The position numbers and the translations under genes are program-made. Below, in pieces: positions 2,983 through 43,656 of a DNA stretch of 64,000 bases. This DNA is from Cenococcum geophilum 1.58 (taxonomy: Eukaryota; Ascomycota; Dothideomycetes; Gloniales; Gloniaceae): the NCBI GenBank assembly GCA_001692895.1, contig KV748244.1, positions 682,001 to 746,000 of the forward strand, in the 5' to 3' direction. The notes under the pieces were generated by a model that was not told the origin of the DNA, ran no database searches, and saw nothing but the letters and a program-made list of their open reading frames with translations. The number at the start of each line of letters is the position of its first letter. Position 1 is the first letter of the stretch.

Positions 2983-3147
2983 ATTAGGAAATTTTTTTTG
3001 GCTATATTATTATAAGCAAAAATCGAGGTCTGCAAAACCTGCGTAAGTTACAATTTTAGCAATTTGCGGGCAATTTATAGCAATTTACTACAAATACACA
3101 ACTCTAATTTTCGGCCGTAATAACGTGGCTAAAAAAAATTTCCTAAT
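2983..3147. repeat. Left terminus of the giant segment, with an inverted second copy of the terminus
   Basis: The terminus at 2983-2999 is repeated in inverted orientation ending at 3147. With mismatches the two arms pair over about 45 bases, giving a 165-bp palindrome-like end. The centre holds GCAATTT-type motifs (3055-3095) that recur near the right end. It could be read as a small independent MITE, but the base after 3147 does not repeat the GTCC target, whereas the distant right end does. Confidence 0.7.
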
Positions 3148-3184
3148 GCATAGGAAGTGTAACCGTAGGGGTAGGCTAGTAAAC

Positions 3185-4070
3185 CTCTCTTATTAAATAC
3201 GAAATTGCTATATATTAATAGGCACACTCCTAGTTCTTTAAGCGGCAAGTTAGCAGATTTCTATTATTAAGTATAAAATTGCCGTATATTGCCTGGTATA
3301 TTACCTAGTTCCTTAAGCGGCAAGTTAATATACTCTAGTTATTAGGCATAAAACTGCTATATATCGCCTAGCATATCGCCTAGTTTCTTAAGCTATAAGC
3401 TAATAAACTTCTATTACTAAGCGCAAAACTGCTGTATATTACTTAGTATATTACCCAGTTCTTTAAGCGGTAAGCTAGTAGACTTCCACTACTAAGCATA
3501 AAGTTACTGTATATTACTAGATATATTACCTAATTCTTTAAATTGCAAGCTAGCAGGCGTTGCCTATTAGTAGAGTATTCTAATATATTAGCTCGCATAT
3601 TACGCGGTTCCTGCGTTATAAGCTAGCAGACTTATTATATTAATAGAGCACCATAATATATTGCCTGGCGTATTACTTAGGTCCTTAAATAGTAAGCTAG
3701 CAGTTATCGCTTATTACTAGAGCACTATAATATATCCAGTTGCTTATTGCCCAGTTCCTTGAATAGTAAGATAGTAAACTTCTTTTATTAATATAAGAAT
3801 TGCGGCATATTACTAATATATCGCCCTATTCTATAAAAAACAACCTAATATACCTTCTATTAACTGTAAGAATGCGGTATATTGCTAAGAAACATTACTT
3901 ACTCTATTAAAAAAAACCCCTAGCATATAACTTCTATTAGCTATAAGACTGCGGCATATTACCTACTATATTACCCAATTCTTAAAATAACAGCCTAGTA
4001 TACTTCTTCTACTAAATAAGACTTTGCGGCAAATTGCCTAGTATATTGCTTAATTCTACGCTAAAATATT
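3185..4070. repeat. Tandem array of a ~75-bp unit (first copy)
   Basis: About twelve degenerate units. The first ones are clearest, with the marker TTCCTTAAGCGGCAAG recurring at about 3234, 3309, 3383 and 3459, i.e. every 75 bases. Each unit also carries ATTGCCGTATATTGCC-like text. It lies directly downstream (3' side) of the SNF2 relic. The same array recurs at 24380-25415 next to the second SNF2 relic. No coding frame is seen. Confidence 0.85.
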
Positions 4071-4089
4071 AAAAATACCTCGCTAGAGC

Positions 4090-7000
4090 ACTTTTACTAA
4101 CTACTCCTTCGAACTCCTTAGCTTATTTATATCTACGTCTAATATCTTATCCATAGCGGTCTTTTTAAACTTATACTTATTTAGAATTCCAACCTTAATA
4201 TAGAAAGCCGTGTTATATAAAATATATATTATTATAAGAGGGTTTTCTTAGCCAATTCGGTAGATGCGGTATATAAACTGTTCCTATTTACTAAAGGATG
4301 GATGAAGCTTTATAAGCATAATAAAGTGTGCCTTATTAAGGGTAATACCCTTTATAATAGCCTTTAGAGATAATAAAAGAATTTATGGTTTGCTTAGCTG
4401 CTTCTATAAGTTATAGATAATGTAGTTCTTTTACTTTAGTAATATTCCTCTAGGGAGATATATAATAGCGTTCTTGCTATATTTAGTAACTAAGGCCTAA
4501 AATAAGTATTAACTTAGAGTTCCGGTTAAGCAAGCTGCTATTAAAAGGTAAAAAGATAGAGTGTTTTGTTACTTACTGCTATATATACCGCCCTAATAGT
4601 TAGGAAATTAGTACCAATAATAACCTTACTATAATACCCCCCAACGTTTTTTAATTATATAACTTCTTTATAATGTGGTGGTAAACGCGGTCCCTCTTAG
4701 ATAGGAAGTCACAATGCTGTCTGTCTATCGGTCGGTCGGTCAGTCAGTTATTAGTCGTAATCAATTAGTAGGAAAGCAGTTAGTAAAAAGAAAGGAAAGA
4801 ATATATTCCGGTAGGTCGTAATAGGGAGAAGGAGAGAAGCCGAAGGCTTAATATATACAGGAAAATGCTAAGGCACTAAGTAGTGGCCCATTTTACCCCA
4901 CCACAATAGATAGCTAAAAGCGCCTTAAACTTTGCATTACCGTAAAGAATTTCCTCCTTATTTTTATCTAAGATGCTTTTAATAGGAGATTTAATTAATT
5001 TTGCGTGAAATTTCGCTTATATATTAATTTTGTTGTCGTCTAGCAGATCCTTATTATATCTATCCTTCTATAAAAGTAACCTAGGCGTTGTTGCTATAAC
5101 ATAGCACGTAAAGTAGGTACTTAAGGAGGTACCAGCTATTTATACTAATTAGTTCCCCTTAGGAGAACTATCTTCTTTTTATTTAACTATTTTCTGCTAA
5201 AATACCTCTTTTATTTCTAACGCTATTATACTTTCTATACCCTATAGCAATTTAATTTCTACAGTTCTATACTTATAGTTTAGGTAGTAAATTTAGAGCT
5301 CGCCTAAAATAACTTTTAATTTTCTTCTGTTAAAGCCGATAGTATTTAAAGTACGGCGAATTTTAAAGTTTATAAGTATTTCTCCGCTAACCTAAACTAA
5401 TTCTTTATATGCTATAGACTGTAAGACCCCTTTAAGGTTACTCTTTCCTTATTTTAAAAAATAACTCTATAGTTTTGCCATATTTTTAACTTTAACGGAC
5501 GTGTATTTTTTAAGAATGCTATTATCTTAGGCGCTTGCCTAATCTAGATTTAAAAGGCCACTTATAATAAACCAATATATATTTACAATACTATTCTCTA
5601 TTAGAGTCCCTAATATAGCCTAGACAAAGAATTTAAGGCGTTTTAGTATAGTACTTTTATAGAAACAAAGAAATTAGTTAATTATAGTCTCTTTATTCTT
5701 CTTATTATAAAACTTATCCTATAAAACCCTATTAAAAATATAATCTTAACCGACTGCTAATCTTTATCCTTTTACTTACCGTTAGACAAGAAGCGGTAGA
5801 CTCTTTTAATAATTATAAAGTTGTTAATAATACGCTGTTTTAGGCATTTAGATATTATAATTATAATAAATCTTATTACCGAGGCAGCCGGGGTTCTAAT
5901 TAAAGGATTACCCTTTTTAAGTAGTAGGATACTATTAAAGAACTATAGGTAAGGGGTTTTTACTTTATCTATAAGAGCCTAATAAGTATTTAAAGTATTA
6001 TAGGTAGTTTAGTTTTCTAACGTTCCTATTTCTAGCTACTTATCTAAAGTTAGCTGCTCTATACCTAGAGAAAAATCTACTATTAAATAGTATATTATAA
6101 CTCTTAGCGGTGCCTGCGCTTGCGTTATAAGTAGTAAGTCTTTAAATAATAAAATATAATTATCTCTCTAGGCAGTAATAATATATAGAATTGCGATAAC
6201 TAGGCTAGCACTATACTGTTTACGTATCATAGATATAGCGTTGCGATTTACGTATAAGTATAGTAGAGGCACTCTATTCTAGCTAGGATACTTAACGCTA
6301 TTAGCCTAGTAGCCCTTTAGTAGATATTAAGTAGCATTTCTAGCCGCTTAATTAGTAGCTACTTCGTCTAAGTTTATGGCATAGTAGTAGTTAAAGATAA
6401 TAGTTAAGTATACGGTTACTGTTTTACTGGTCCCTTTGCCGTCTATAAGAACCCTATTATTTAGCTCTATATATTTCTAGTAGAATATCTTAAATACACT
6501 ATATAGCTAGTATAGGAACGCTCTAAACTCTAAATTAAAACCCTATCTACAGGGAATAGGGACCATATTATTCCCTAGGAGGGCCCCTTTAGAAACCCTC
6601 TATAGCTTAGCTAAGCGTTTATATATCTACTACTCTATTCTTTTAATCTTACCGCCTACTTTTACTATAGCAGCTTCTTAAAATCTAAAAAAAGCTAACG
6701 TTAGTCTAACTCAAGATATACCCTATATGCTTATATACCTATACCTTTACTTAATATAATTGGCAGCCTCTACCTCCCTATTAGCTTTGTTTATTATATC
6801 TTTAAGGGCCTCTTCTTCTAGGTTATCGTCTTCTGTAGAAACCTATATAGTATTACTAGCCAGATCGTCTACGGTTATAACCTATAGTTAAGCTAGTTTA
6901 GGATCTAGAGCGGTTGCGCTTTAGAAAGCATTATAATTATCTTTATTCTCCTCTATACTATTAGGACCCCCTATAGGTTAGATAGCTAGACTGCCGCAGC

Positions 7001-8110
7001 TATCCTTAGTAGCTTGCCGTAATTTACCTTTAGATACTCTAGCAGGTTACTCCCTTTTATAACTACGTTTCTTCTAACCTAATAAACTTAGAATACTGCT
7101 ATACGCTAATAAGGTTAATAAAGTATCGCTCTTACTTTTAGTGTCTTTATTAATAAACTTATTATCTAAGTACTCTAAGTGCTTACGGGTCTGCTTAGAC
7201 GCAGTCTTTTACCGTTTTTTATATATAGGCTTGCCGCGCAAAGACTAGCGAATTGGGGTATTAGCGATGCTAGGAGGGTTTATGCTCTGCTTACGTGGTA
7301 TTTAGTACAGTGTTTTTATAATTAAATACTTAGCTGTAATTGTTAGTATATAGATAGCTAGATATTATTAAAAGAACATATAATTAGTACTCTTAAGTAT
7401 AAATTCTACTTTACTTCTATAGTATAGCATATATTGCTAAAATGCGGCTTATAATGCCCCTTATTAGGTAATATAAGCCTCCTTATAGGATTTAATATCG
7501 ACCTATAATTTAATCCTTATCTAAGTTAAACCCTACTAAGACTATAACCTCTTAAAATAGTAAAAAACTAATTTCTTTAATTATTAGAGTTTTTATATTA
7601 GCTTTTATAATATTATAAATTATGTAAAGCTCTATAGTGTTTTAGGTAGTTAAGTTTATTCTTTAAAATTAGAAGGTTATATTTTTAAGTAAAAGTGGCT
7701 TACCTAATAATGTAGGGCCTAGTAATTCCGAGATTTGCTTAGAAGCAAATATAAGCGCTAGCGTTATTATAGGTTTGAATTTAGTTTAAGTCTAACTTTT
7801 AGGTTTTAACTTATTTTGCCGTTTTATAGTATTAGTTCTCTATAATATTATCAAAGTAATAATGGCATCTTTGGACTAGCTCTCTAAAATACTTTCCCTC
7901 TTAGGCAAGTTGCTAAAAACCTTCTAGATAAAGTTATCGCGTAGTACTTTATCTTTAGCAGTATAAAACGCGACTTTATTAAGCCTAGCCTCTACTATAC
8001 TATCTAATATTATCTTCTTAATTTCCTTAAGGCGACGAGCATTGATTTCCTATCCATTTATAATATTTAAGTCCTTTATAGTAATATATAAAGATACTAA
8101 AATAGAATAA
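4090..8110 (-). pseudogene. SNF2-family helicase-like protein relic, copy 1
   Basis: On the minus strand a degraded long frame shows two SNF2 landmarks. A Walker A-like motif (DGKGTSKT, expected form GxGKT) is encoded at about 6421-6447. The motif VI region (EQFIYRIYRIGQ-like, with TAG for the last Gln) is encoded at 4250-4283, preceded by the GITL..A segment at about 4300-4360. The N-terminal part reaches about 8060 and is not recognised. SNF2 proteins are ATP-driven DNA translocases that remodel chromatin. The spacing between the motifs is large, and motif II was not identified. The frame is full of RIP stops and interrupted by a MITE at 4673-4906. The second copy is at 25430-27339 plus 33285-35115. 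The family call rests on the two motifs only. Confidence 0.55.
4673..4906. mobile_element. 234-bp MITE, TA target, with empty site in the paralogue
   Basis: Flanked by TA at 4671-4672 and 4907-4908. The ends are inverted repeats: ATGTGGTGGTAAA on the left, and the complement of the right end reads TTGTGGTGGGGTAAAA. The paralogous module at about 25845-25860 reads straight through (CTTTATAGATAG) with a single TA, which fixes the insertion exactly. It contains a short (GGTC/GTCT/CAGT)n run at 4716-4750 and has little RIP. TA duplication and TIRs suggest Tc1/mariner-type mobilisation; no coding capacity. Confidence 0.85.
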
Positions 8111-8746
8111 AGAAGAAGTAGAGCGTTGCTATATAAAAGTAGAAGAATCTAGTTAGTGTTTAGTAAAGGTGTAAGTCTAAAGTAGGTGGGTAAGATAAAC
8201 TAATTATAAGAATTAAATAACTGGGCAGATTGCCGCAGTTTTAGGGTATAAGTTATAGCTTAAAGTAGCAATTAGCGGTTAAACTAATTAATTAACTAAT
8301 TAATGTCGCGTAGAGGTGCCGTGTAAGAGTTAGTTAAGGTAGTAAAGGTAAAGAGTTAGGCGAAGTAGATATTAAAGAAGTAACACTAGTAGGTAAATTA
8401 CCGTCATTTAATGCTTATTAATGGTAAGGTAAATTAAGAAGTTCTAGTAAATACGCAAAATGCCAAGTCTAGCGGCATTTTGTAATAGATTGCCTTAGGT
8501 AGTATAAGTCTTATATAGTTATAATTTTTAGGATTTAAGAACTAAACTAACTTATTAATTTATTAAACCTTATAAATCCTGCTAGACTACTAATATAAAA
8601 AGGTAATAACTTAGCTAAGTATAGAATTTACGTATTATTTTTAATTATTTTTTAATAGGAGACTAGGTAAAGCTAATTAAGCCTTTACTATAGCCTTCTT
8701 TAAGCCCTCCTATACCGCCCTTAATTGATCCTCTATATTAAATAGC
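8111..8746. other. Spacer between SNF2 relic and solo LTR
   Basis: Up to about 8375 this is still homologous to the second module (ending about 35115), including a CTAATTAATTAACTAATTAAT run at 8284-8304. From 8376 on I see no gene, repeat or motif. Confidence 0.5.
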
Positions 8747-8751
8747 CGCTA

Positions 8752-9171
8752 TGTAACGGAGCCTTATAGTAGAAACTACGGTAGACTTATTAATAGGCTA
8801 GGTATATAGGTATTACCGGAAGTTAACAACGTAATAATAACTGGTGAAGTGGTTGCCTAATAGATTAACTCTAATTATATTCTAAGAATTACTATAAAGA
8901 AGGAACTATCTAGGTAGGGACTAAGGGTCCTTAAATACACGACCGTACTCCTATAAAATCCTCTTTATACATGATATACGTGTTATACGTAAGGTACGTA
9001 AGTTCCCTTCGTTCCTCGCGTTCCTTACGTAGCACCTCATGTAACCTTAGCTACTATTTCTTATCACATAGTTCCACGGGTTCTATCCTGGACCGTGCTT
9101 ATATTAACTAACTAGCTTCTTCCAACTCCTCTCTAAGTAGTTATAACATCGTACTTAAAGCGTCCGTAACA
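8752..9171 (-). mobile_element. Solo LTR (420 bp) of the Gypsy family found at 48310-57151
   Basis: The inverse complement runs TGTTACGGACGCTTTAAG... to GGCTCCGTTACA and aligns along its whole length with the 419-bp LTR at 56733-57151. TSD CGCTA is present on both sides (8747-8751 and 9172-9176). No internal sequence is present, so it is a product of LTR-LTR recombination. It keeps many CpA/TpG and CpG sites and is much less mutated than the LTRs of the long copy. Confidence 0.93.
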
Positions 9172-9189
9172 CGCTAGTTAAACTATTTA

Positions 9190-9954
9190 ACTACTTATAG
9201 CACTTAATATACCTTATTTAGCGTATATAGTACGTCCTCCCTTATAACCTTAAGCTGGTTCTTTACCAAAAGCTCTTAAAATATTACCTTTCTTTAATTT
9301 ATATTATACGCTTTAATTAGTTATAAATATAGTTTTATAACCTTAGAGATAATCCTACTTTATTACTTAGGCGTCCTAGATTAGATTAACAATAGATATA
9401 TTTTAAGCCTTTTTAGCTTTTTAAAGTTCCTTAATTTCCGTCTTTAAACTCTCTATTTTAGTAATTAGCGGGTAATATAGTCTATAAAGCATCCCATCCC
9501 TCCTTTATGCGACTAATTATCTAACTTACAATATTAAAGAGGTCCCTCTTTATAGTTTTCTAGTTTCTATAACAGCTATCTCTACGGCGCTGTTTTTATT
9601 TAACTTAGTTCTCTCTAAACTACGTATAGTAGTATTTCTAGCGGCCGGTAGAATAGAATGGGTTAGTAGAGGCTTCTTAATAGGTAGCTAAGCTGTCTTT
9701 ATAGCTTTAGCTACCTTATTATTCTTCTCCTACTTAATTAGAAACCCTCTAATCTCCTTTTAATAACTATCCACCGCTTTCTTCTTTCGCGGCTTTAGAG
9801 CTAGCTTAGTGGTCCCATCTCTATTCTTTAGTAACGACTTTTTAATATAGGGACGCTTAGTGCGCTTAGCTAGGGTGGTTGTATACCTAGGGTTTTTATT
9901 TATCTGTAATAATCGATTAATATAAGATATCTATAACTCCTTATTGGTATACAT
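9190..9954 (-). pseudogene. Unrecognised basic protein relic with coiled-coil-like segment
   Basis: From an ATG at 9954 a single minus-strand frame of about 255 codons can be followed to a TAA near 9190. It is broken only by TAG/TAA codons of the RIP type (about 17). The product would be very rich in Lys/Arg (KKK and RKKK patches near codons 70-80). Near codons 185-205 it has a heptad-like stretch (ITKIESLKTEIKEL). No known domain was recognised. It sits between the SNF2 module and an insertion, inside the giant segment, and seems to have no copy in the second module. Confidence 0.45.
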
Positions 9955-10705
9955 ACTATTATAATATTTACTTTAAAATAGGTTAAGGGCTAGTATATAG
10001 TTAAGTTAAAGGGAAATTAGTTCTAATATAGAGAGTAGGTAATAGATAGATAGATAGTATTTAGTAGTAAGATCTAAATGGGAAGCTTATCCTTATTAAT
10101 ATTAAGAATACGTATAAAGCGGATAGGTGGTAGTAATTTAGGGGAAGACTTTAATAGAGGATTATTCTATATAATTAGCAGCTAGTTAATAGAGGAAGGG
10201 CAGGAACCTATAGTTATAATATTATATATTACGACATTTTACCTAACTTCCTTAAATATATATATAGGTGGTGGCCTTTTATAGCATTTTATTGGCATTA
10301 TAAGTTAACGCGTTTTGGTAAGGCTTGCTAATAAAATTACACTAGCTAGGGTGCTCGCAGTATGCTAACCTAGGTAGGAGCGCCTAAAGTACCTAATACG
10401 AAAAGTCTCTTTTACTAAACGAAGGGATATGGAGCTTAAAGCTCCTTACTATTTAGTTACAAATCGCCTCTATATTATAACTATTCGATCTATACGCCTT
10501 TTAGTATTACCTATTTTATAATTAGTAGCGGCTACTACTATAGCTTATTTAAATCTGTAATTAAGTTAATTATTTAGTAAGGCTCTAAAATAAGGCTCTA
10601 GATTTAACTTCGCATATTAATATATAATTAACATTAGTAAGCAATTTAAAAGAGCCCCTCTCTGCTACTAGGCCTCTATCGCGACTCCCTACTTTAGTAT
10701 AGCAA
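9955..10705. other. Intervening sequence without recognised feature
   Basis: AT-rich, RIP-affected sequence of the giant segment. A short GATA repeat (10041-10060) is the only structure noted. No credible frame or homology to other parts of the window was seen. Confidence 0.4.
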
Positions 10706-10871
10706 TGGAGCCTCCTCCTTAACTAATATCCTCTCTACAATCGGCGTTTTCTACGTCTTTATCTACCTCCTATACAAACCCCTTAGAAACAAGCTTATCG
10801 CAATTAAAAAGGTTAAGATAATAACATTATAAGGCATACAAACGCGACTGCAGTATCGTAATTGGGGTATA
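10706..10871 (+). pseudogene. Start of an unrecognised plus-strand gene relic, cut by a Gypsy insertion
   Basis: An ATG at about 10703-10706 opens a Ser/Thr/Leu-rich frame of about 53 codons (MEPPP start) with a few RIP-type stops. It runs up to the family-beta insertion at 10872. Sequence resuming at 24047 could be its continuation, although the frame across the junction is uncertain. Function unknown. Confidence 0.3.
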
Positions 10872-11263
10872 TGTTACGGAGTAAGCACAAGCGGTAATAA
10901 TATATAGTAAAGTAGGTATTATTAAGCTATGTATATAAACTGCGTAATAAAGTTAAGACGTTGCGTAAGGAAAGAAGGTAGGAAAACGGGAAGAAAGGGC
11001 ATATATTGTTAACTTGGTTGCTTAGTTAACACATACATAGGTAAAATAGGGTTTAGGTTATAGTCCTAGCAGAACTTAGCAGAATTTAGTAGAACTTAGC
11101 AGAATATAGCAAAATGCCGTAGATTGCCGTTAGATTACTATTAGATTGCCGTTAGATTACTATTAGATTGCCGTTAGATTGCTATTTTATGGTTAGTCTC
11201 TAATTGCTAAGTCGGTGGAAATAGGTAGACGTATATAAGGTATTACGGGGGTGTCCCGTAATA
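10872..11263 (-). repeat. 3' LTR of family-beta copy 1 (392 bp)
   Basis: Pairs with 23702-24041. It is about 50 bp longer because two short internal repeats are expanded: AGCAGAACTTAGCAGAATTTAG-type (11064-11110) and ATTGCCGTTAGATT-type (11120-11185). Confidence 0.93.
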
Positions 11264-11280
11264 GTACCCCCCCTTTAAAC
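11264..11280 (-). other. Polypurine tract of family-beta copy 1
   Basis: On the minus strand GTTTAAAGGGGGGGTAC directly precedes the LTR. It is the plus-strand primer site for reverse transcription and fixes the element's orientation. The same tract is at 27690-27707 in copy 2. Confidence 0.85.
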
Positions 11281-11299
11281 TTAAGCTTCTGCGAGATAG

Positions 11300-13312
11300 G
11301 GCTATAGTAGTTCTAGGTAGAGTTTATAAAAGTCTTCTGTGGCTTATATAAGTCCTATAGAGTTAATAGGTTCCTATAAGGACTTAGTAAAACCTCTCCA
11401 TTTTATAAGATATATATATTAGCGTTTCCGTTTATCGTACTTAATATTATTAATTCTTTTAATAAAGTACTCATTCTCACCATCTACTTTAACTAGTGGG
11501 GGAGGGTCTTATATCTATTTAGGCAGGGCGTCTAATATAGGGGTAGTAGGGTAGAGGACTGACGTATAGAATACGGGGTGGATTTTAACCGTATTAGGGA
11601 GCTTCAGTTAGTAGGCATAAGGAGAGATAACCTTTTTAACCTTATAAGGGCCAGCGTTCTTTTAATTAAGTTTCTTAATAGGTTGTTTTATATTTAGATT
11701 TCTTATATCTAGCCAGATAAAATTACTAATTTAATAGGCCGGTGCTAGGGTTTGTTTTTTATTTACTACGGCTTTATAAACAGATTAAGCCTATATTATC
11801 TTATTAGTAAGAAACTGTTATAGTTCCTCCATCTTCTTTATAAATTTATTTACTTCTATAACTTATAAGGCGTAATAAGTAGGGTAAAGAACATTACTAA
11901 AGGGTTTAAAACCCATTCGTAGGTGCTAGCCGTAATTAGCTAGAAATGGGGAGACTTTTATAGTTTTTAAGACGGAATTATTTGCAGTAAACTTAGTAAA
12001 TGCGAGCCAGTTAATCTAGTTATCCTATAAATACAATATGTATATCCGAATATACTATTCTATTATAGCATTTACGCGTTCTATTTAGCTATCCGTTTCT
12101 AGGTAATATATAGTAGATAATAGTGCTTTAATATAGAGTTAAGTAGTTAGTTCCTTCTAAAATGCCAAAATAAACTAGCTGCCTCTATTAGAGATAATTG
12201 TTTTAGGAAGTTTATAGAGTTTCTATATATAATCTAGGAATAGTTAGGCAACGGCAGGCGTTAATATATTAGGGCAGGCAATTAAGTGTCTTATTTTAGA
12301 TAGTTGGTTTATAACTACTATAATATTTATGCAGCCTCTACTATTAGGAAGGTTAATAATAAAGTTAATTAAGATATCCTTCCATCTTCGGTCCGGAATA
12401 GGCAGCGGCTTTAAAAGACCGTTATACGTCTTATACGAGGCTTTAGCTCATCGGCAGGTATAGCAGCTAAAGATATACCTTCGTGTTATATTATGCATAT
12501 TCGGCTAATAATACTCCCATTAAAATAGTTCTAGGGTCTTTCCTTAGCCCAGGTAGCCGGCGATAGGTAGATTATATATATATTTAAGGAGTTTAAGCTT
12601 AAGCTTATCGTAATTAGGGATAACTAGACGGTTTTAGTAATATAAGCGGTTTCTATAGGCTTTACATTTACTTAGAGAAATCTTTTTAGAGCGTCTAATG
12701 CTATTTTATATTAGCTTAAGTGTCTCTTAAATAAACTCATTATTTAGGTATTCGTTAACTATAATCTATTTAATCAATCAATTAGTTATTTTAAGGACGT
12801 ATACCGTAAGATATTTAGTAGGAGGGTTAAATAGTTTAGGGTAAAGTAGGGTCTGATTTTAGTAAAAGCGCGCTTCTTCTAGGGCTAGCGCGTCTTGCGA
12901 GCGTTAGGTTAGGGTATTAGGCTTTTAACCTTAGACGCCTAGGTAGTATATAATTAAAAATTGGAAATAAGACAGATATTCTAACTAGCAGGCCTAATGA
13001 TAACTTAGCTATTTTGTGGTTATAAAGTACTATAGGTTCTTATAGTTACTAAGGACCTTAATTAGAAATCTAGCGCCTTTTAGTTCGGGTCGCCATTATT
13101 TAAAATACCTAATAATAGCTAATAATTCCTTATTGTAGATCTTGTAGTTATATTTAGCTAGGCTTAGTTATTTTAAGAAGTATACTATAGGGTATAATAC
13201 TCCATCCTCGTTATATTAAGATAGGATACCTCTAGTAATATAGTTAGATAAGTCGGCTTCTATAATACTTATTTAGTTTAGGTTGAAGTGTTAAAGTACA
13301 GGCGTAGTAGTA
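11300..13312 (-). pseudogene. Family-beta copy 1 integrase (and end of RNase H), degraded
   Basis: Collinear with 27720-29745 of copy 2. On the minus strand the H2C2 zinc-binding region is recognisable near 12410-12570 (PNMHN..RRY followed by the Cys pair). The catalytic core carries a YYPKTDSQ.ER..A..-like block near 12060-12110. Integrase inserts the cDNA into chromosomal DNA. Every stretch is broken by RIP-type stops. The upstream part of the same pol resumes at 20526 after the alpha insertion, which cuts the frame between RT/RNase H and integrase. Confidence 0.75.
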
Positions 13313-13317
13313 AATAT

Positions 13318-13504
13318 TGTCACGGCACTGACTTGTCGCATACTGTTCCATACTGTCTCGTACTGTTTCCTACCGTTGGCTGGCCCACTACTAGCGCCTT
13401 AGCGGCTGGCCCTACTATTTATGTACGATACCCCTTTTTTACCTTCTTCTCTTCTTTATACCACAACGTAGTTATTTAGTCTACTTTATTGCAGCACTAT
13501 AACA
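13318..13504 (+). repeat. 5' LTR of the nested alpha element (187 bp)
   Basis: Runs from TGTCACGGCACTG to GCACTATAACA. Compared with the 3' copy (20334-20520) the differences are almost all C/T or G/A transitions, mostly at CpA/TpG, and the 3' copy is the more mutated one. An incidental 63-codon open frame lies across it and is not a gene. Confidence 0.96.
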
Positions 13505-13746
13505 GTTTATGGTATCTCTAATTGCGCCCCGTCGCGATCTCTATTTTCCTAGTCTACTGTCTCTGTTTTCCTAGTATAATCGCGACCTAGCGCGACTGAT
13601 AACACTATACCACAGTCCTAGACAACCTTAGTACAATTCTAGATAATCTTAGTATAATCTTAGACAATCTTAGTATAATTCTAGACAATCTTAGTATTAC
13701 AGCCAGCCTTATAGATTTTAATTGCTTTACCTAGACCCCTTTAGAA
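13505..13746 (+). other. Leader of the nested alpha element with possible primer-binding site
   Basis: GTTTATGGTATCTCTAATTG follows the LTR. The TGG five bases in could start a tRNA-primed binding site, but I could not match a tRNA. A short repeat, CTTAGTATAATTCTAGACAAT-like, occurs about four times at 13626-13695. Confidence 0.5.
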
Positions 13747-15300: not shown

Positions 15301-15399
15301 TTAAGGGTCAGAACCATACGGGGAGGAGGATAAAAGGATTAGATCTATACTACTAGATTAGTTAGATCTTATTCTAAGCCAGCGGCTACTTAACCTTAA

Positions 15400-15975: not shown

Positions 15976-15984
15976 CCTATCTCT

Positions 15985-31560: not shown

Positions 31561-31699
31561 TTAACCATTCTGCTAAAGACGGCAGTTAATGGTTATACTA
31601 CGGTCCTAAAAGTCAGAGTTTGTGACGTTAAATGCGTTTAACGAGATCCTATAGTAAAGCCGTCCTAGAGAGCGACTTAGCTTTAGGACCTTCCTTTTA

Positions 31700-32870: not shown

Positions 32871-32914
32871 CGTTCTACATGTTAATAGTAATATAGGTAG
32901 TTAACGTAATATAG

Positions 32915-33284
32915 TATTACGGAGTAAGTATAAGCGACGATAATATATAGTAAGGTAGATATTATTAAGTTATATATATAAACTATATAAAGAGGTTAAG
33001 ACGTTATATAAGGAAAGAAGGTAGGGAAACAGAAAGAAAGGGCATATATCGTTAACTTAGTTGCTTAGTTAACACGTATATAGGCAGAATAGGGTTCAGG
33101 TCATAGTCCTAGTAGAACTTAGCAAAATTTAGTGGAACTTAGCAGAATATAGCAGAATGCCGTAGATTGCCGTTAGATTGCCATTAGATTACCATTAAAT
33201 TGCTATTTCGCGGTTAGTCTTTAATTGCTAAGTTAGTAGAAACAGGTGGACGTGTATAAGGTGTTATGGGGGTGTCCTATAACA
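32915..33284 (-). repeat. 5' LTR of family-beta copy 2 (370 bp)
   Basis: Starts TATTACGGAG and ends GGTGTCCTATAACA, followed by TSD ATTTA (33285-33289). Confidence 0.93.
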
Positions 33285-35115
33285 ATTTACCAGGAATGGG
33301 GACTAGGTTCTTTACTAAGACGGCCTTTTTAGGAACTCTGTATAGCTTAGCTAAATATTTATATATTTATTACTTTATTTATTAAACCTTACCTCCTACT
33401 TTAGCTATAGCGGCCTTTTAAATTTTAAAAAGAGCTAATGTTAGTCTAATTTAAGATGTACTCTATATAACTATATACTTATACCTTTACGCAATAGGCA
33501 TTATAGCCTATATCTCTTTAGCTTAGGTTATATTATCCTTAGGCGCATTTTACCTAAGATATCTTAAATCGCATTAGTTTCTATAATTTTACTAAGAAAA
33601 GCTTTTACGGGTATAGTATTAAATTATTATATAAAGTTTGAGCTAATTAGGGATATAAAGCAGTTTTGCTCTAGGGAATATCGCAATTATCCTTACCGTG
33701 CTCTATATTGTTGGGATTATCTATAAACTAGATAACTAGATTATTGCGGCTATTCTTAGCAGCTTGCTATAGTTTGCCGTAGTTTGCCCGTAGATACTTT
33801 TAGTAGGTTACTCCCTTTTATAATTATATTTCTTTAGACTTAATAAACTTAGAATGCCGCTATATGTTAATAAGATAGATAAAATATCGTTTTTATTCTT
33901 GCTATCTTTATTAATAAACTTAACATCTAAGTGCTTGCGGATTAGCTTAGGCGTAATCTTCTACCGTTTTTTAAGTGCGGCCTTAGCGCGTAAATACTAT
34001 AGGTTAGAGTATTAGCAATTCTAAGAGGGTTTATACCCTACTTATTTGGTAATTAGTATAGTACTTTTATAATTAAATGCTTGGCTGTAATTATTAGCAT
34101 ATAGATAGCTAGATGTTATTAAAGGGACTTATAATCCGTATTTTTAAGTAGAAATTCTACTTTACTCCTATTATATAGTATATACTACTAAAATAAGGCT
34201 TATAATAGCCCTCGCTAGGTAATATAAACCTCCTTATTAGTAACTATATTAAGCTAGGTAATTTTATTCTTATCTAAGATAAAACTTACTAATATTAAGA
34301 CCTCTTAAAATAGCGAGAAACTAATTTCTTTAATTATTAGAGTTTCTATGTTGCCTTTTAAAATTTATAGACTATATAAAGCTTTATAGTACTTTAGGTA
34401 ATTAGGTTTATTCTTTAAAACTAAAAGGTTATATTTTTAAGTAAAAACGGCTTATTTAGTAATATAAAACTATATAATTTAGAGATTGGCTTAGAAGTAA
34501 ATGTACATACTAGCGTTATTATAGGTTTAAATTAGGTTTAACTTTCAACTTTATATTATCTTACTATTTAGTAGTATTAGTCCTCTAGGATAATATAAAA
34601 GGAATAATAGCCTATCTAAACTAGCTGTTTAAAGTACATTCCTTCTTAGTTAAGTTGCTAAGAATCTTCTAAATAAACTAATTATATAGTATTTTATCTT
34701 TAGCAGTATAAAACGTAGGTTTTTAAGCCTAGCCTCTTATATATTATCTAAAATTATATCTTTTAATTTCCTTAAGGCGATAAGTATTAATATCCCATTC
34801 CTTTATAATATCTAAGTCCTTTATTATAATGCGTAAAGATACTAAGACGGAATAAAGAAGGAGTGGAGCGTTGCTATATAAAAGTAGAAGAATCTAATTA
34901 GTAATTAGTAAAGGTGCGAGTCTAAAGTAGGAGGGTAAGATAAACTAATTATAAGAGTTAATCTGCTAGGCAAATTACCATAGTTTTAGGGAGTAAGTTA
35001 TAGCTTAAAGTAGTAATTAGCAGTTAAACTAATTGGTTAACTAATTAATATCGCGTAGAGACGCCGTATAAGAGTTAGTTAAGGTAGTAGAGGTAAAGAA
35101 TAAAGTAAAGTAGAT
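33285..35115 (-). pseudogene. SNF2-like helicase relic, copy 2, 5' (N-terminal) part
   Basis: Resumes the module at the point where beta copy 2 inserted and aligns with about 6540-8375 of copy 1, including the TTAATTAATATCGCG-type run near 35035. The N-terminal region is not recognised as a known domain. Homology to copy 1 ends near 35115, which marks the edge of the duplicated module. Confidence 0.5.
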
Positions 35116-35199
35116 AAGCTTAAGGTAAATACTCTTACTAACACAATATAATACGCGTAAGTTAAAGGGCAATTTACTATAGCAGATTACCGCTAAATG

Positions 35200-36195
35200 C
35201 GCTTCCTCTAGTTATAGAAAATATTCTTTATAAAACTAGTATAATAGACGGAGCTAGAAGTATGTTAGAATATACAACCTAAGAATAAGGGTTAATACGC
35301 CTAGGACGTTTTACCTATCTAGGATTAATATTTTAGCTTAATTAAGACCGCTTTAATATACCCTTTTAAGTAGGGCTCCTAGTAAATAATTAAGACTCTA
35401 AATAGTATTAGATTTAAAGCTATAAGGACTAATACTATATACCGTATATATTCGCAATTACAAAAATAATTATATCCTTAGAGGCTTTAAGCGTTTATTA
35501 TATTATATACTTTAAAAGTCCTATATTCTAAACTAGAATAATTATTAGTATATCTGTCTATAACTCCTCTATCTCTAAGTTAACTCTAGCGTCCTAGGCA
35601 ATATTAAGAAATTTAGGGAAATTTAAAAGACTTATCCACCCTTTTACTAAGTTAGTTTAAAGTAGACTAGTACCTAAGTCTATATAAATTATAGACTGTA
35701 GTATATTTTTTAAATCTCGGCATATATAGATTATAAGACCCTAAACGTTATATTTATTAATATGTTTAGGTAAAAGAGATTAATATATATCCTAAGGCTC
35801 TATATAAGGGTACCCTATAGCAAAATTTGTAGCTCTATATTAAAGTCCTAATTTAGCACTAGCCTAGCCAGCTTTCTTGCGCATATTTAACTACGTGCAA
35901 GTAAGGAGATATTAGGCTACTTTCTTAGTCTACTTAACTAGAGCATTACTAGACTCTAGGATTTAATTAACGATTTTGGCTATAATCTTACTTTAAATAG
36001 TGTAATTTATTTGGTCTTGGAAGCGTATAGATATTGCATTACTTTTATTTATAATGTCCTTAACTACCCCTTTAATCTTATATAAATAAGCGCTACTAAT
36101 ACCAAACTCGGATATAATCTGCTTATCCTTCCTAGGAGTTTTACCGGTAGACTTATACTATGCCTCCTCTATAGTATATACACTATTTAATTATA
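35200..36195 (-). pseudogene. HTH-containing protein relic, perhaps Tc1/mariner-type transposase
   Basis: A single minus-strand frame of about 250 codons can be read from about 36190 to 35440, with only TAG/TAA interruptions, and more weakly to 35200. Near codons 20-50 there is a helix-turn-helix-like block (KDKQIISEFGISSAYLYKIK) of the kind that opens Tc1/mariner and related transposases. The DDE residues could not be placed. No terminal repeats were found. It lies between SNF2 copy 2 and the KDZ transposase relic. The family is a guess from the HTH alone. Confidence 0.35.
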
Positions 36196-36379
36196 TTATT
36201 GCTATGCTAGGTGCGTATAGTATTAGCAAGGGACGCGGGATTAAAGGTTTATAAATGTTTAGCAGTTGTAAATTAATTGTGATAGGTACTATAGGATATA
36301 ATACTGCTTTATATATTATTAGCGCTTAGGATAATATACTATTTAGTATATTTAACTTATAATTTAAAAGGAGCAAGCC

Positions 36380-39300
36380 GTTATAGTTATTACGATGGCT
36401 AGTAAATCGCCGCAGATTATGGCTATTAGATTAGTTATGTAATATACTGCCCTTTTTAGGTATAAACCTACCTATCTAATCTTAATAACAACGTAAGGAG
36501 CCGTATTTGTTACTATTATAATAGGCTTAATAAATTGCCAGTGCCCTAAATATAAGCGCACGATTTCTACTATAGGTAGATTAGTACGATATAAGCTATA
36601 CTATAAAGCTGTAGGTATATATTATCTTAACTAATAGGATAATGTCTATCCTATAATTTAGGCTCGAGTGGATATATATAAAGACGACAAATTTACTGTA
36701 GAATAATGGGTATACGACCTTATAGCAACTAATACCGTTATTAATAATACTTTATTAACTATTATAGGGAATACTAGCTTAATATTGGTAGAGGAGCTAA
36801 GTAATATAGCACTGGTAGAATAACTAACTAGTACTAAAATGCATAGTTACGCAGTAATAAGCCTCTTTACCTTAAATATTTATTATACCTAAACTTATTA
36901 TAAAGTAACTGGCCGCTATATAGGAACCCTACTTAGCCACCCGGAGGGAAACTCTAATTAATAGTCTGCTATAGATCGCGACTACCTACTAAGGCCTAGC
37001 TAGCTAGCAGATAGAATAAATAAAGGTAATAATATATTCTACCCTTTTATAAGCTCTATAGAATAGGCGTAAGTTGCTTAGTAGGTACGTAATAGTATAT
37101 TAGTAAAAGAAATAGACGCGTGGCTATAAGACCCCTATATTAAAAATATAAGGGACGGATATATATTATACTAAAATGTAAAAGAAGTTAAGATAAAACT
37201 ATATTCTATTTTTAAAGGTGTAAGTAATAAGAGCTAGCGAATTACAGAACTTAATATATACGGCAAAAACCTAAAGATATACCACTATAATATACTTAGC
37301 GTGGTGGCCTTCCTAATCAGTTATTTCCAATTTAAAGATAATATAGTTTATTCTCTTATTTATTAGTTTAATGTAAAAGGTAATAAAGTATATAATAAGG
37401 TATACACGGCCGACCGTTAGTGGGAGATCTAAGATTAATTACCTAATGGTGTGATGGCTATTATGGTAATACCTAGTAGCAACTAAATTAAGCTAACTAT
37501 ACTATCCGGAGATAAAAAGGCGCATCCGGTTTATATTATAATACTTAATATTCTATTAAAGACTTAACGTGTAGCTAGTAGGCTAGTAATGCTTCTTCTA
37601 GGTTATATACCTATAGACTTACTAAGTAACCGGATAAACAAGCTAGATATATACTATTAAGTAATAAGTATTATATTTAAACGTAAGTATTTACCTTAGT
37701 AGTATATAGGTACTTAAGTTAATATAAAAACTAGCCCTTAAACGCGCTGCTAGGCGCGGTATACCAATATAATACGCAGATAGGTTTATCTGGCAATACT
37801 ACCCTATACTTACTAGGTTTATAGCAGACTATAAGGAGTAGGTTATATTAATAGGAGTATAATTAAGGTAATACTATATAATGTATTATATACCGCCTTA
37901 TAAATAAGGTAACCTACTAAGTACTATATCTAGCAAATAGCCGCGACGGACGCATAAATCGACTATTAAGTAACTTAAACGATAGTAAAACTCATAGCTA
38001 GATCGCAGCGACCCTAAGTATATTAGGCCAATTAAAATTTTTACCTAGTCCTATTATATAGCAGATATACACGCTATAATAGCCCCTAATTTACTATACT
38101 AGCTATATAAAGGCGTTATAGAGTATTTAATAAGCTAGCTTTAGGCACTACTACTTAATATTAAAAAAGGGAAAGGGAAGGTTCTAATAACTAATTAAAG
38201 TAGTATAAAAACCCTATTATCTACTAAGGATAGGGTAGAACGTCTTCTAACCGTATAATTCATTAAGGTTAAACCCTTTTAGGGTATAATTAGATAGGAT
38301 AACTTTATAGAGTTAAGCTAATAGACTGGAAAGATATATAAGTCCCTTCTTTATTAGATTGTATTAGTTATAGTACTATTGCTATATAGGCACAAGGGGG
38401 TAATGCTATTTATTTATGCTATAGTTAACTTTATATTATTAGCCAAATATAAATTATATAATAAAGATATAATTAAATATCTTAAAGCTGTATTATATTA
38501 AATAGATAAAACTAAGGAGGTGTTCTTACCGTACTAACCTAATGACAAAAACCTACCTAATTTTAATATACCTAAACTTTATGCAATTTCCTACTATCTG
38601 GAGATAATTTGTATATTTGGCGCCCTAATAGGAACTATAATAAAGTACAGCGAAAGGGTATATATTCCTTAGAAGAATTTCTATTAAAGATTAAATAAGT
38701 ATAAAGGGTATAAAGAGTAAATAATTTATCTTAATATGGAATTAATAAATACTATAGTAATGTAAAAGATGGAGCTATAGGAAAATATAAGGCTAATATT
38801 AGCAGCTAATACTATGGAAGATTTATATATTATATTATTATTAGGTATAGTTAACCTAATAGACAAGCCATATAGATGGGATTACTACTAGTTAACTAAC
38901 TAAATGTTTTCAATATGCGGAATAAACCTAAATTTATAGCGTAGAACCTGCGAAATTTAAACTAGGCTAGGTATTAATAAATTTGTTATAAAACTAGCTT
39001 TATTTATATAGAAATGTTATAAGCGAGTTAATAGTATATAAGTAACGGATTTAGACGTTAAGCGCCTTAAAAGGGATGCAGCTTAGGTATAAGATTTACC
39101 TATTAGTATTTATTACTTTATAATATACTATATTTAACGCGGTAAAGACTTTTATAATCTTAATCGACTATATAAAGTATAGGCACGCTATAATCTAGTC
39201 TAGATATAGACTACTGCCCTATAAAGGGACTAAGTTCTTATATAAAAATATAAGAACGTAATAAATAGAATAAAGGGAACGCGGGCTGCCTATTTAGAAT

Positions 39301-39930
39301 TGCTGGTATTAGTATAGGACTTAAATTATATAGGTGAGAAAAGTAGATACTAAGTATACTATAAAGCACTTTTTAAGCTATTCCGTCTATATAATAGAGG
39401 TAAGGTAAATCCTTTTAATAGGATAATTAAAGTGGAATGATTTTTTATAAATATAGCGCAAAATAGACAAAACCTAAACGGCTACCGAATATATACCATT
39501 TCCTATATTAAGAGACCTATATAACTAATACCAACTTCGCTAAATAAAAGAAGAACATTTTAGATAAACTTATATATAGATTGGGATATATATAATCGAT
39601 TCTATAATAATAATTTTCTTTAGATTAACAGTATACGTATAGATAAGTTTATAAAAAAATAAAAATCTAAAACTAAGCTTTTAATTAAATTATAGGAGGC
39701 CTTAGAATAAAAACGAAAATGGCTAATATAATAGGGAATCCGGTATATTTAATCCCTAAAAATCTAGATAAATTAGCTATAAGATAAGGCAAAATAGAAA
39801 GAAGTTAAGAAAGCTGTTAGTTGGCTTAAAGGTAAAGGCGGCGTGTTTAATATATAGGTAAATTAAGTAATAGAGGGGCTCGTTAGAGTAAGAGGCTAGC
39901 TAGCTATACGTATTTTTGCAGATTTTATAT
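36380..39930 (+). pseudogene. KDZ-superfamily (Plavaka-type) transposase relic
   Basis: A plus-strand coding region of about 3.5 kb, the length expected for Plavaka transposases. An N-terminal C2H2-like finger (YCPF...LNNNVRSRIC) is encoded at about 36445-36520. The most telling block is at 37400-37560: YTADR.WEI..LPNG, then I..SS...LT.LSGDKKAHPVYI, LNI. In fungal KDZ proteins the D-K-T-x-L-T-x-F-S-G-D-K-x-x-x-P-V-Y-x-T-x-G-N-I region has this layout. KDZ enzymes are RNase H-fold transposases of large DNA elements. Upstream exons show a frame change near 36440, perhaps an intron. Many RIP stops; the acidic catalytic residues were not all located. It is the best candidate for the enzyme that moved the 40.7-kb segment, but nothing proves the link. 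Confidence 0.6.
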
Positions 39931-39934
39931 TAGC

Positions 39935-40640
39935 AGAGTAGTATAATAACCCCCCCTCTTCTGCCTTTCTCTTCTAATTTACTACACGTTTTTCTTTAAT
40001 AGGCTTTATTTTTATAATAATCTCTACCTTTATAGTCTAAGCTTCTTCTAACTGTTCGTAATTAAGTATATTAACTCTATTAATACTTAGGGCTAAATTA
40101 ATAGCTAATCTTTGCGACCGCCGCTTCTTAATATATAGAATAACCTTATATTACTTCTTTGCAAAGGCTCTCCTTAAGTTTTAAATATAAAATAACTTTA
40201 TTAGCTTGTCGCCTAAGCTAATATACTTTAAGGGAGATTCTAGGTAAAAAAAGGCAAAAATAGCGCAATTAAACTGACTTTGTGTTTTGGGTATATCTAT
40301 AGGCTAACTAGGTGTAAAGGGGAGCTTTAAAGTACGTCTTAATAAGGGAGGAGAATAAGGACAGCCGTTATACACTTACTGCTTAGGTAGTGTTAACCTA
40401 CTAAACTACTAGAAAAGGTTAGCTATATCTATATAAATTAGTTAAATTCTTACATTTTTATAGGCGGTTATAACGCTCTTATCCGTAAAGATTAGCTCTA
40501 GTGCTTACTTATTAGTAGGAATTCTTAATATTATATAGCTGATAGTAAGATAATGCGGCAATCTACCACAATTTGCCCTAAGTGGGCTGGTAATAGGTCT
40601 AAGCTCCCTAGTAGAATATTAAAATCTCCCCCTTTACTCC
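39935..40640 (-). pseudogene. Possible C-terminal tail of a pogo-type transposase
   Basis: A minus-strand frame contains SPPLLRRTLKLPFTPS.PIDIP near 40300-40360, then a Lys/Arg-rich helix (KKRRSQRLA near 40105-40130) and an EQLEEA...K.KPIKEKR coiled tail (39960-40060). Fungal pogo/Fot1-type DDE proteins commonly end with such a TPxTP linker and basic coiled tail. The catalytic core is not present upstream. Low certainty. Confidence 0.3.
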
Positions 40641-40743
40641 TCTATTTTATTAACTGCATCCATATTAATAAATATATAATTTAAAAGTGTTATACTTTAT
40701 CTTTATATCTTTATTAACTTCTTTAACTTCTTCTATATTAGTT

Positions 40744-43120
40744 ATGCCGAAGGTTTACTAACCTCTACTATTTTAAAAGAATATAACTATAGCTTTTAAA
40801 AAGAATAAGGTATAGACTACCCTCTATATAACTGCTTAAAATACTAATATATACCTACCACTAAGGTAAAGGTAAAAGAAATAGTACTACTAGTATAAGA
40901 AGAATCTAGAAACGTATATGCAAACGGCAGTTAGGCTAAAGTACTATAAATAGTATATACATGGTAGCATACAGCTAACTTTAGTAGACGGCTATATATA
41001 GCGATAGAGTATCTAAAGATGGTATTCTAAAATGTTAGTTAGATATAAATAGCAATTCTAAAAAAGATAGAGGCTTAATGCCCTAGGGAAGAGCGTATTG
41101 TTAATAACTCTAGTAGAGTTTAAATAAAGAATCTTTAGATTTATATATACAGAATTTAACTATAGTGTCTATTACATAGACTCTATTCCTTTATACCTAC
41201 TTACGCTTTAATAGCGGTTATAAGTCCTAAATTGCCCTAATAAGCGGCTCTAATACTACTATCCCTTTACTAAAGAGCTTATCTCTAGTGCTAAAGATAA
41301 CTCTATAGCCGAGTCGTTTTATATAGCGCCTATACGCAGTAATAAACTGTAGAAGTCTTAATATAGTATATATATAGTTAGAAGATGGTAAGGAATAAAA
41401 CGTAGTAGTAAACCCAAATTAAAACTTATGGATAAACTAATATTAAAAGCTGCTATGCGCTTTTTTTTAATGTTTATAATGTTGGGTAAGGCTCCTAAAG
41501 GTCTTTCTCTTACGCTATAGCCAGAAGGGAATATAAAGACTCTAGAAAAGACGATAGACTTAGTATAGGATAAAGTAGTGGAGTATAATAGGGTTTTTAA
41601 AGGCAACGGTTCTAGTAAGGCTATATAAAAACCGTTACTATTAATATATTATATGGTAAGCTACCTCTTATTGCTTCTATATATACTAATATAAAATAGA
41701 TATATAATAGTATTAGCTAGTTTTAGTCTTACCTGTTAAGACGCATATAAGATTACGTAAAGGCTAAGTACTTATTTAAAAAGCTCTCTAAGCAGGAAAT
41801 AATTACTAAAGTAAAAGAGCTACTCTATATGGATAACTTTTAATACTCTAAGATAGTACGCATAGCTATACTACCTTAGTACTCTCCTAACTATTTATAG
41901 GGCAAGCAATCCCGCTTTATAGCACCGGTTATTATAGTTAATCTCTTTAAGTCATTCTTTAAAGGAAGGTAGTAATTTGGGTTTAGTATAGATATATAGC
42001 ACTTTCTGCGCCTAATTAGCCCTGGGGCTATTATACTAATTTATATAATAATCCGCCACATTATTAATAAATAGAAAAGTAGTAATTTTACCTAATAAAA
42101 GTTTAAAGCAGGTGCCAATCTTAATAGTAATTTATTCTTTCTCTACCCTTATTCTAATTACCTAGGCTACACTATAACTAACTCTAATATTAGCTATATA
42201 AAAATAGATAAAGGCTATATAGGTAGATTAGTTAATAGAGCGCCAAAACTAGATTTTAGGGCTTCTATAATAGGGCGTCTTAAAAAGACATTAAGTAACT
42301 ATATATAGTAACGACCCTACTATATAAGTAATTCTAAATCTATTTAAATATAGTCTTAATAATCTTTCTAACCTAGATTCCGACTATAACGTGGGATTTA
42401 ATAAGTAGCGCTTTAATATACTTCTACTGGTATATAACTACTTATAATAACAGTTTTGGACTAATACTTATATCTAGGTACTTAACGCATTTCTTTCCTT
42501 AAACCTAGATACCTCCCGCCCTTCCGGCACTATTACCTAGCCTAATATACCCTATAATATATTGCCTAATTAGACTGACCACAGTACTAATTACTAAGGT
42601 AGTAGGCCTAATAATATTAGCGACCTTAATAGCGGTATAGATAGCGGGACTAATATAAATAAGTGTTATAATGGATATAGTGGAGTTAATATAGATAAAG
42701 ATGGCGATACGGATAATGGAATAGATATAGCTTTAGGTGGAAATATAGATAATTAGAATAGTGCGAGAAAGGGGGGTAATAAATATAATAGAGCAGATAT
42801 AGGTAATAATGCCGGCGTAAATAGTGGAGAAGATATAGGTAAGGATAGTGGCGCTAGTAATAATTTCGGAAATAATACCTATAAGCTTATCTTTAAAGGT
42901 ATAAAATCGCGGAATCGGAAACGTACTATTAATATACTATATCGCTAGAATTACGAATAGTTAATAGCTATAGTTAAGCTATTTAGAAAGACGCTTGGGG
43001 CTAAACCTAATATAAGTCTTTAGTATACTATTAAAAAAGGGGTTAAGTCTGTACTATTTAATAATAAGGATTTAGATATCTTTAGAATAAGATAGAGGAG
43101 GGGCTAGGTAAGGTAAATGC
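40744..43120 (+). pseudogene. Unrecognised large plus-strand gene relic with Asp/Asn/Gly-rich C-terminus
   Basis: From an ATG at 40744 one frame runs for about 330 codons to about 41740 with only RIP-type stops. A second frame from 41757 to 42300 encodes a block with PVIIVNLFKSFFKG and a following FGFSIDI...ISPGAI.L.Y....I segment that reminds me of the fungal domain DUF6532. A third frame (42330-43120) encodes a low-complexity part: repeats of D, N, G, S and I (DSGTNINK, GVNIDKDGDTDNG, NNAGVNSGEDIGKD) and then a basic end. Frame changes may be introns or small indels. It is the last gene of the giant segment before the right subterminal repeats. Function unknown; the DUF6532 resemblance is from memory and weak. 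A minus-strand open frame at 41358-41606 is a shadow of this gene. Confidence 0.4.
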
Positions 43121-43200
43121 TTTATAGTCTGTAATAGGTTTAGAGGAATAGCTATTTTATATAGTAGTTATAATATAAATATATTTTTTAAGGCATATTA

Positions 43201-43372
43201 TGGCAATCTATAGCAATCTATAGCAATCTATAGCAATCTGTAGCAGTATATTATAATTTATATAGTTTGTATAGTTTATACAGTTTGTACGGTTTGTACG
43301 GTTTATACAGTTTATATAGTTTATACGGTTTGTATAGTTCGTACAGTTTATACAGTTTGTATAGTTTGCGCG
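43201..43372. repeat. 10-bp tandem repeats near the right terminus
   Basis: Two arrays side by side: AGCAATCTAT repeated about four times (43201-43246) and GTTTGTACGG/GTTTATACAG-type units repeated about twelve times (43255-43372). Non-coding. Confidence 0.85.
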
Positions 43373-43434
43373 CTATTTATTTATAGGGTAGCAAAAAGCT
43401 AGCATTAGTTTAGTAGTTAAGCGTTTTGCTATAA

Positions 43435-43555
43435 TTTGCTATTAGATACTATAAACTTGTTATAAAACGCGTAGTTTACTATTAGATACTGCAAACTTGT
43501 TATAAAACGCATGGTTTGCTATTAAGGTGCTATAAACTTGTTATAAAACGCATAG
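43435..43555. repeat. 40-bp tandem repeat, three copies, right subterminal region
   Basis: Unit begins TTTGCTATTAGATACTATAA and ends AAACGCGTAG. Copies start at about 43435, 43475 and 43515. Each contains TTTGCTATTA, resembling the GCAATTT motifs at the left terminus. Confidence 0.8.
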
Positions 43556-43599
43556 TTTGTATAATTCGCTAATGACTATATCTACCTGCCGCAACCGTA

Positions 43600-43656
43600 T
43601 AGTTTGTGGCAATTTGCCGCAAACCGCAATAACTAGCCTAAAAAAAATTTCCTAAT
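43600..43656. repeat. Right terminus of the giant segment
   Basis: Ends with eight A, then TTTCCTAAT, the exact inverse of the left terminus over 17 bases. GTGGCAATTTGCCGCAAACC at 43605-43624 is a near-palindrome repeated in looser form near the left end. The TSD remnant GTTT follows (43657-43660). Confidence 0.8.

Follow-up and report, generated by a model that had tools for sequence, protein, structure and literature searches.

What is the segment at positions 2982 to 43657 of the 64-kb window analyzed here, where it interrupts a retrotransposon gag sequence between inverted termini, and can it be assigned to a described transposon family? The window, by which we mean the whole stretch of DNA under study, covers positions 682001-746000 of contig C69 in a genome of 177,193,698 bases and 162 contigs. 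An earlier note, written from the letters of the window alone, had described the segment as a giant multigene DNA transposon that could not be placed in any described family. The element proved to be a real transposon of about 21 kb that has decayed by C-to-T mutation of the type produced by repeat-induced point mutation (RIP), and the segment itself is an authentic copy, now dead, of a giant family of PlavakaB elements. We hold with high confidence that it is one copy of a cut-and-paste DNA transposon family of this length, belonging to the Plavaka lineage and of the PlavakaB type.

Termini, empty site, and target duplication

The insertion and its immediate borders comprise the following features.

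2982..43657: entire insertion, comprising the element and what later inserted into it, with termini C(ATTAGG)...(CCTAAT)G, from the terminal inverted repeat (TIR) search, the empty site, and paired ends
2980..2981: TC, the 2-bp target duplication on the left side, from the empty-site alignment and paired-copy statistics
43658..43659: TT, its right-hand counterpart from the same sources, the same bases as the left copy with the C-to-T change expected from RIP
43640..43657, minus strand: right TIR, from the TIR and right-end searches

A search of the window for the terminus, allowing up to three mismatches, gave five matches, of which three were exact, namely, those of ATTAGGAAATTTTTTTT at 2983 (plus strand) and at 3131-3147 and 43640-43656 (minus strand). 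The 17-base inverted termini of the earlier note are therefore exact at both ends, but the true ends lie one base further out, and the inner copy at 3131-3147 had gone unmentioned. Its claim that removal of the segment restores gag was borne out by five segment-free gag copies (L079 to L083), fetched from among 39 other gag matches elsewhere in the genome, which align uninterrupted over the junction and represent the empty site. Compared with the empty gag, the joined flanks hold four extra bases, namely, the C at 2982, the G at 43657, and a 2-bp duplication. A 4-bp duplication, GTCC/GTTT, as first proposed, is equally possible when the window copy is judged alone.

The 15 copies in which both ends were paired (see below) gave a different answer. 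In all 15, ATYAGG is preceded on the left by C or T, and CCTRAT is followed on the right by G or A. Because this flanking base is invariable in that sense, the true terminus is CATYAGG, its C often read as T through RIP, and the termini are CATYAGG..CCTRATG at 2982-43657. Unmutated CATCAGG and CCTGATG termini are present in several copies. A 2-bp duplication fits 13 of the 15 exactly and all 15 when transitions are allowed, values that were reached in none of 20,000 permutations. The duplication is mostly TA, which stands at both flanks in 8 of the 15. The 4-bp duplication was rejected, as it fits a single paired copy exactly and two with transitions, and so was a 3-bp duplication, with no exact fit and two with transitions.

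Family copies across the genome

A genome search with the left end, in which 40 of 460 candidates were scored so that the count is a lower bound, returned at least 101 matches, 21 of them near full length. The right-end search (40 of 298 candidates scored) gave 41 matches, from which the best 17 sites were taken as the right end of the family; 23 matches at 79 to 82% identity were set apart, and one fell in a site that had been counted through another piece. For 15 of the 21 near-full left ends, a right end lies downstream on the same strand at a spacing of 20.7 to 43.1 kb, and five of these pairs are only 20.7 to 20.8 kb apart and enclose an SNF2-like region, a Plavaka transposase, and DUF6532 in the same order. 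Inverted pairs 10 to 30 kb apart, which the earlier note had named as the thing to look for, thus do occur. Among the 17 right ends, C3:5674441 and C19:285398 have no listed partner on the left; SNF2 and Plavaka sequence lies upstream of the former. The expectation that the internal genes travel together held for the SNF2 region (21 of the 21 left ends) and for a split Plavaka gene, in place of the KDZ gene first named (18 of 21), but a DUF6532 match was present for just 9 of the 21. In another ten left ends, the match does not begin until query position 160 or 161; the SNF2 region accompanies nine of them, Plavaka and DUF6532 six, and a listed right end none. These ten form a sister group.

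An uninterrupted copy and the internal layout

The copy on contig C80 (L075 to L077) is a single uninterrupted unit of about 21.0 kb. After subtraction of four later insertions, the window aligns with it in one piece over 20,869 columns, 18,914 of them identical, with 1,955 differences (1,897 transitions and 58 transversions) and 156 gap columns. With transversions at 0.3%, the two copies were nearly identical before RIP. The element's own sequence in the window measures 20,893 bases, to which its two terminal bases must be added, in agreement with the earlier estimate of about 20.9 kb, and all four insertions recognized earlier were confirmed against C80. No closed frame listed for the 64-kb window reaches 150 codons, the TpA/ApT ratio is 1.5 to 1.9 per 4-kb block across the window, which matches expectation for RIP, and the copies read as sequence have decayed via C-to-T and G-to-A changes. 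This makes a filamentous ascomycete with active RIP the probable host.

Read from the left end of C80, the element consists of 75-bp tandem repeats, an SNF2-like gene (SNF2a) on the minus strand, a stretch without recognized domains, repeats with a second SNF2-like gene (SNF2b) on the minus strand, the Plavaka transposase and DUF6532 on the plus strand, a D/N-rich stretch, short repeats, and the right end. Domains were sought in six-frame Pfam scans of C80 positions 301-9999 and 10001-19999 at an E value of 0.1, reaching to within 1.3 kb of its right end; in mutated sequence, the absence of a domain is weak evidence. The internal features of the window copy and the insertions within it are as follows.

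2982..3148: MITE-like (miniature inverted-repeat transposable element) left block, made of the outer terminus and an inner inverted terminus at 3131-3148
3167..8371, plus strand: first copy of an internal direct duplication, with about 75-bp tandem repeats and SNF2a
4083..8133, minus strand: SNF2a helicase relic, interrupted by 4673-4905 (ends approximate, by eye)
near 4280, 5613, 5718, and 6443, minus strand: SNF2a motifs VI, III, II, and I, respectively, mapped from C80
24366..35116 (24366-27339 plus 33285-35116), minus strand: second copy of the duplication, with the SNF2b relic
36528..39128, plus strand: relic of the Plavaka transposase, its approximate ends judged by eye in C80
41691..42110, plus strand: relic of DUF6532 (PF20149), placed by way of the match in C80
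42571..43128, plus strand: D/N-rich reading stretch, by eye in C80 and mapped to the window
4673..4905: later insertion, 233 bp and MITE-like, with ends GTGGTGG..CCACCAC, within the SNF2a relic
8750..9172: later insertion of about 420 bp, with an inverted repeat copy at 56732-57151
10870..24044: later insertion, a long terminal repeat (LTR) retrotransposon with LTRs at 10870-11266 and 23702-24044
13315-20520: second LTR element, nested inside the 10870..24044 insertion
27339..33288: later insertion, second copy of the LTR retrotransposon of 10870..24044, interrupting SNF2b

The D/N-rich stretch may be a gene of its own, or DUF6532 may extend downstream to include it.

A Plavaka transposase

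The transposase had been read as KDZ type (Kyakuja, Dileera, Zisupton). In C80, however, the Plavaka domain PF18759 was found in two neighboring frames with E values of 4.2e-22 and 1.1e-18, corresponding to positions 37265-37633 and 37734-38135 of the window, and the window's own sequence gave a match at 37259-37630 with an E value of 7.5e-17. The KDZ domain PF18758 was not among the C80 Pfam matches at E 0.1. The PF18759 match identifies the element as Plavaka and not KDZ. An intron-like break separates the two frames and recurs in other copies of the 21-kb family, and a C2HC-like finger lies near 36528, on the N-terminal side of the relic. The sole relative obtained in a protein search, P0001, is an open stretch of 392 amino acids from a 1,692-base contig with 67% identity over 62% of the query; it shows a weak C2HC finger (E 0.025, below the cutoff) followed by a Plavaka domain (E 1.9e-36). 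Given this open sequence, an unmutated close relative exists somewhere.

In the part of Kojima 2025 (PMC12730594) drawn on here, PlavakaB elements have CATCA..TGATG termini and target duplications of 2 or 3 bp. The family has these termini, in the window copy only if T is read for C and A for G, as RIP would produce, and it has a 2-bp duplication. PlavakaB transposases also have C(2)C and H(3-4)H motifs between the second D and the last E; in the mutated frames, a C-x2-C-like stretch and an H-rich stretch can at most be guessed by eye. The transposon family belongs to the described Plavaka lineage, most likely to PlavakaB, and the element once set down as unassignable is now placed in a named family.

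DUF6532 and a second Plavaka family

DUF6532 was detected in C80 with an E value of 4.2e-6 and in the C64 copy with an E value of 5.8e-14. A genome search gave 76 DUF6532 matches, with the window's own copy absent from them. Forty-nine have one of the 110 Plavaka sites no more than 30 kb away, against about 2.8 expected by chance, and the other 27 have none inside that distance. Two arrangements were seen. Of 43 split Plavaka matches, which include copies from outside the 21-kb family, 14 have DUF6532 on the same strand, 4.4 to 5.1 kb downstream. Of 67 matches in a group with the transposase in one frame, 22 have it on the opposite strand, 15.2 to 16.6 kb upstream. The latter group constitutes a second giant Plavaka family with a better preserved transposase (for example, C8:1424602 and C28:2020710; L085 and L086), and its right end, TTTTCC[TG/CA]ATG in two copies, is of the CATCA type and lies about 2 to 3 kb downstream of the Plavaka match. 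Since two Plavaka families of different gene order both keep DUF6532, we propose a functional partnership, and DUF6532 looks like a transposition partner of Plavaka. A homologue search with DUF6532 returned nothing among 627 scored candidates. The domain has been named together with Plavaka and KDZ as an extra domain in two Ganoderma species, in a source consulted in part.

Duplicated SNF2-like genes

The earlier note had claimed duplicated SNF2-like genes; the duplication is confirmed and the SNF2-like character is supported, but the domain scores are weak. The element apparently carries a duplicated SNF2-like helicase on the minus strand. When motifs I, II, III, and VI were sought in order with tolerance for RIP, they were found once on the minus strand of C80, not on its plus strand, and in none of 60 first-order shuffles. 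A C-terminal stretch was recovered from 18 copies, nine of which were given to Pfam, and Helicase_C was matched in five of the nine (best E value, 2e-4); two matches to other families were at chance level. The best single-copy matches in the PDB were to snf2/rad54 helicases, at E values of 0.13 and 0.32; a PDB search with the long SNF2 frame gave no match, and a search with the N-terminal piece gave only unrelated proteins at E values of about 0.7. Of 7985 candidates scored in a homologue search, none reached E 0.001, and PF00176 was not detected in the six-frame scans of C80. In C80, SNF2b is without the stretch bearing motif VI, a gap that falls at about 25532 of the window, and in the window it is without motifs V and VI, so that at best one copy might have encoded an active ATPase.

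Elsewhere in the genome, contigs C75, C71, C36, and C100 hold clusters of mutated, stop-rich copies of the SNF2 domain; these perhaps represent another helicase-bearing repeat element.

The left end and its MITE-like forms

In the main group of copies, the first 167 bases are enclosed by inverted termini and resemble short forms that consist of two left ends in inverted orientation. Three such forms were found, at C72:7851-8083, C83:561890-562124, and C26:554019-554273, and the first was read as sequence. The internal sequence of the main group is also present in L036 and L037, where it runs into about 300 bases of an ordinary left end that takes the place of the MITE-like block, and L038 has a different MITE-like block at a slightly shifted position. 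On the simplest reading of these sequences, a MITE's outer terminus would have replaced the original left end, perhaps twice.

Six sister copies (L039 to L044) share more than 300 bp of different sequence to the left of the junction. No recognizable terminus was found there in 1.5 kb, and this left sequence is unexplained by MITE capture.

Alternative explanations

The alternative offered in the earlier note, that a small MITE-like TIR element only seems large through nested insertions, takes some appeal from the short two-left-end forms on C72, C83, and C26 and from the 167-bp block at the window's left end, and the terminus does occur on short elements. It is not confined to them, however. 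Copies of about 21 kb without later insertions refute this explanation: C80 is an uninterrupted 21.0-kb unit collinear with the window, and in all five pairs at 20.7 to 20.8 kb the three gene regions stand in the same order, so that we give it almost no credence. Just as unlikely is a giant element of the Starship or KDZ type. Size and cargo recall Starships, and KDZ-like sequence had been claimed, but the element has TIRs and a 2-bp duplication. Starships are defined by a DUF3435 tyrosine-recombinase captain; the C80 scans at E 0.1 found Plavaka and DUF6532 and neither a captain nor a KDZ domain, to the degree that absence counts in mutated sequence. A nonautonomous composite, in which a host block with SNF2 and other genes sits between Plavaka ends and is moved by a transposase supplied elsewhere, is somewhat less unlikely, though we still consider it improbable. 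In its favor, the genome holds the second, better preserved Plavaka group, and long stretches of the element have no recognizable domain. Against it stand the element's own Plavaka gene, at the same place in 18 of 21 copies, and the presence of DUF6532 beside both Plavaka groups.

A number of observations weigh against parts of the reading that we prefer, a giant PlavakaB transposon with DUF6532 and SNF2-like genes. No intact copy was seen in the genome, as all 123 Plavaka matches listed hold at least one stop. The lineage was judged by domain, termini, and duplication. DUF6532 rises above threshold in only the 9 copies counted above, the window's not among them, and its partner role is one that we infer. 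The function of the SNF2-like genes is the weakest claim, and their role, too, is inferred. The motif patterns and their spacings were chosen once the frames had been read by eye, so that the motif test was not blind. Helicase_C reached at best 22.0 bits against a curated cutoff of 23.5, with no match in four of the nine copies, and the N-terminal piece had no Pfam match. Finally, none of 72 genome matches to PF00176 fell within the 15 paired intervals, and a 17-copy profile run against the PDB reached only E 0.1, where RAD5 and an unrelated dehydrogenase were on a par.

Comparison with known elements and a possible mechanism

In the main text of PMC12730594, neither "SNF2" nor "DUF6532" appears; in the portion used here, Plavaka is grouped with EnSpm in the CMCT clade, apart from KDZ, the published Plavaka elements are reconstructed from Agaricomycotina, and TET/JBP is an extra gene of some PlavakaB families. 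The present family resembles PlavakaB so described in its Plavaka transposase, CATCA..TGATG termini, and 2-bp duplication, but it differs in its RIP-active host (probably of the Pezizomycotina), its length of 21 kb, and its SNF2-like and DUF6532 extras. No TET/JBP was found in the six-frame Pfam scans of C80, and a genome search with PF12851 gave no matches, but its search control also gave none. KDZ elements are likewise fungal DNA transposons able to carry TET/JBP, but PF18758 was not found in C80, and Zisupton duplications are 8 bp according to the same portion of PMC12730594. EnSpm/CACTA families of the red alga Chondrus crispus, as given in the part of PMC6431247 consulted, are 16 to 20 kb long with four or five open reading frames (ORFs), so that size alone is not new. 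They are similar in broad clade, size, and possession of several ORFs and differ in host kingdom and transposase lineage; the comparison is by size and ORF number. In the literature searched, largely open-access titles and abstracts, there was no report of SNF2 or DUF6532 inside Plavaka, of a giant Plavaka DNA transposon of Ascomycota, or of SNF2 in fungal KDZ transposons. The lineage is thus known, and this size and gene content for Plavaka were not met in the literature examined.

The gene content suggests how such an element might have worked. The Plavaka transposase, with its N-terminal zinc finger and DDE catalytic domain, would bind the terminal and subterminal repeats and move the whole unit. 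EnSpm elements employ a second DNA-binding protein, and by analogy the DUF6532 protein may serve as a transposition partner. The SNF2-like ATPase could open the element's chromatin or keep it open against silencing. With the left end swapped for a MITE of two inverted left ends, the transposase would cut at the MITE's outer end and at the element's own right end, and the resulting form would multiply. The family was later killed by RIP, and the window copy took in LTR retrotransposons.

More tentatively, and with more doubt than belief, we suggest that PlavakaB elements of RIP-active fungi form a giant class with a core of Plavaka and DUF6532, the latter a TNPA-like partner, that at least one family added an SNF2 antisilencing gene, and that the family described here spread after a MITE of its own kind had replaced its left end. 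DUF6532, a fungal domain, would thereby gain a concrete and testable role, perhaps as a general partner of Plavaka transposases. If the rest is true, a transposon-borne SNF2 remodeler would be a second antisilencing route of fungal DNA transposons beside TET/JBP dioxygenases.

Related right ends

Right ends at L060 and L062 to L074, 81 to 84% like those of the family, belong to other elements, which have subterminal minisatellites of their own and mostly end in CCTRATG. A Plavaka match lies within 45 kb of 1 of 24 related right ends. The elements at L060 and L062 to L074 are perhaps a large nonautonomous family.

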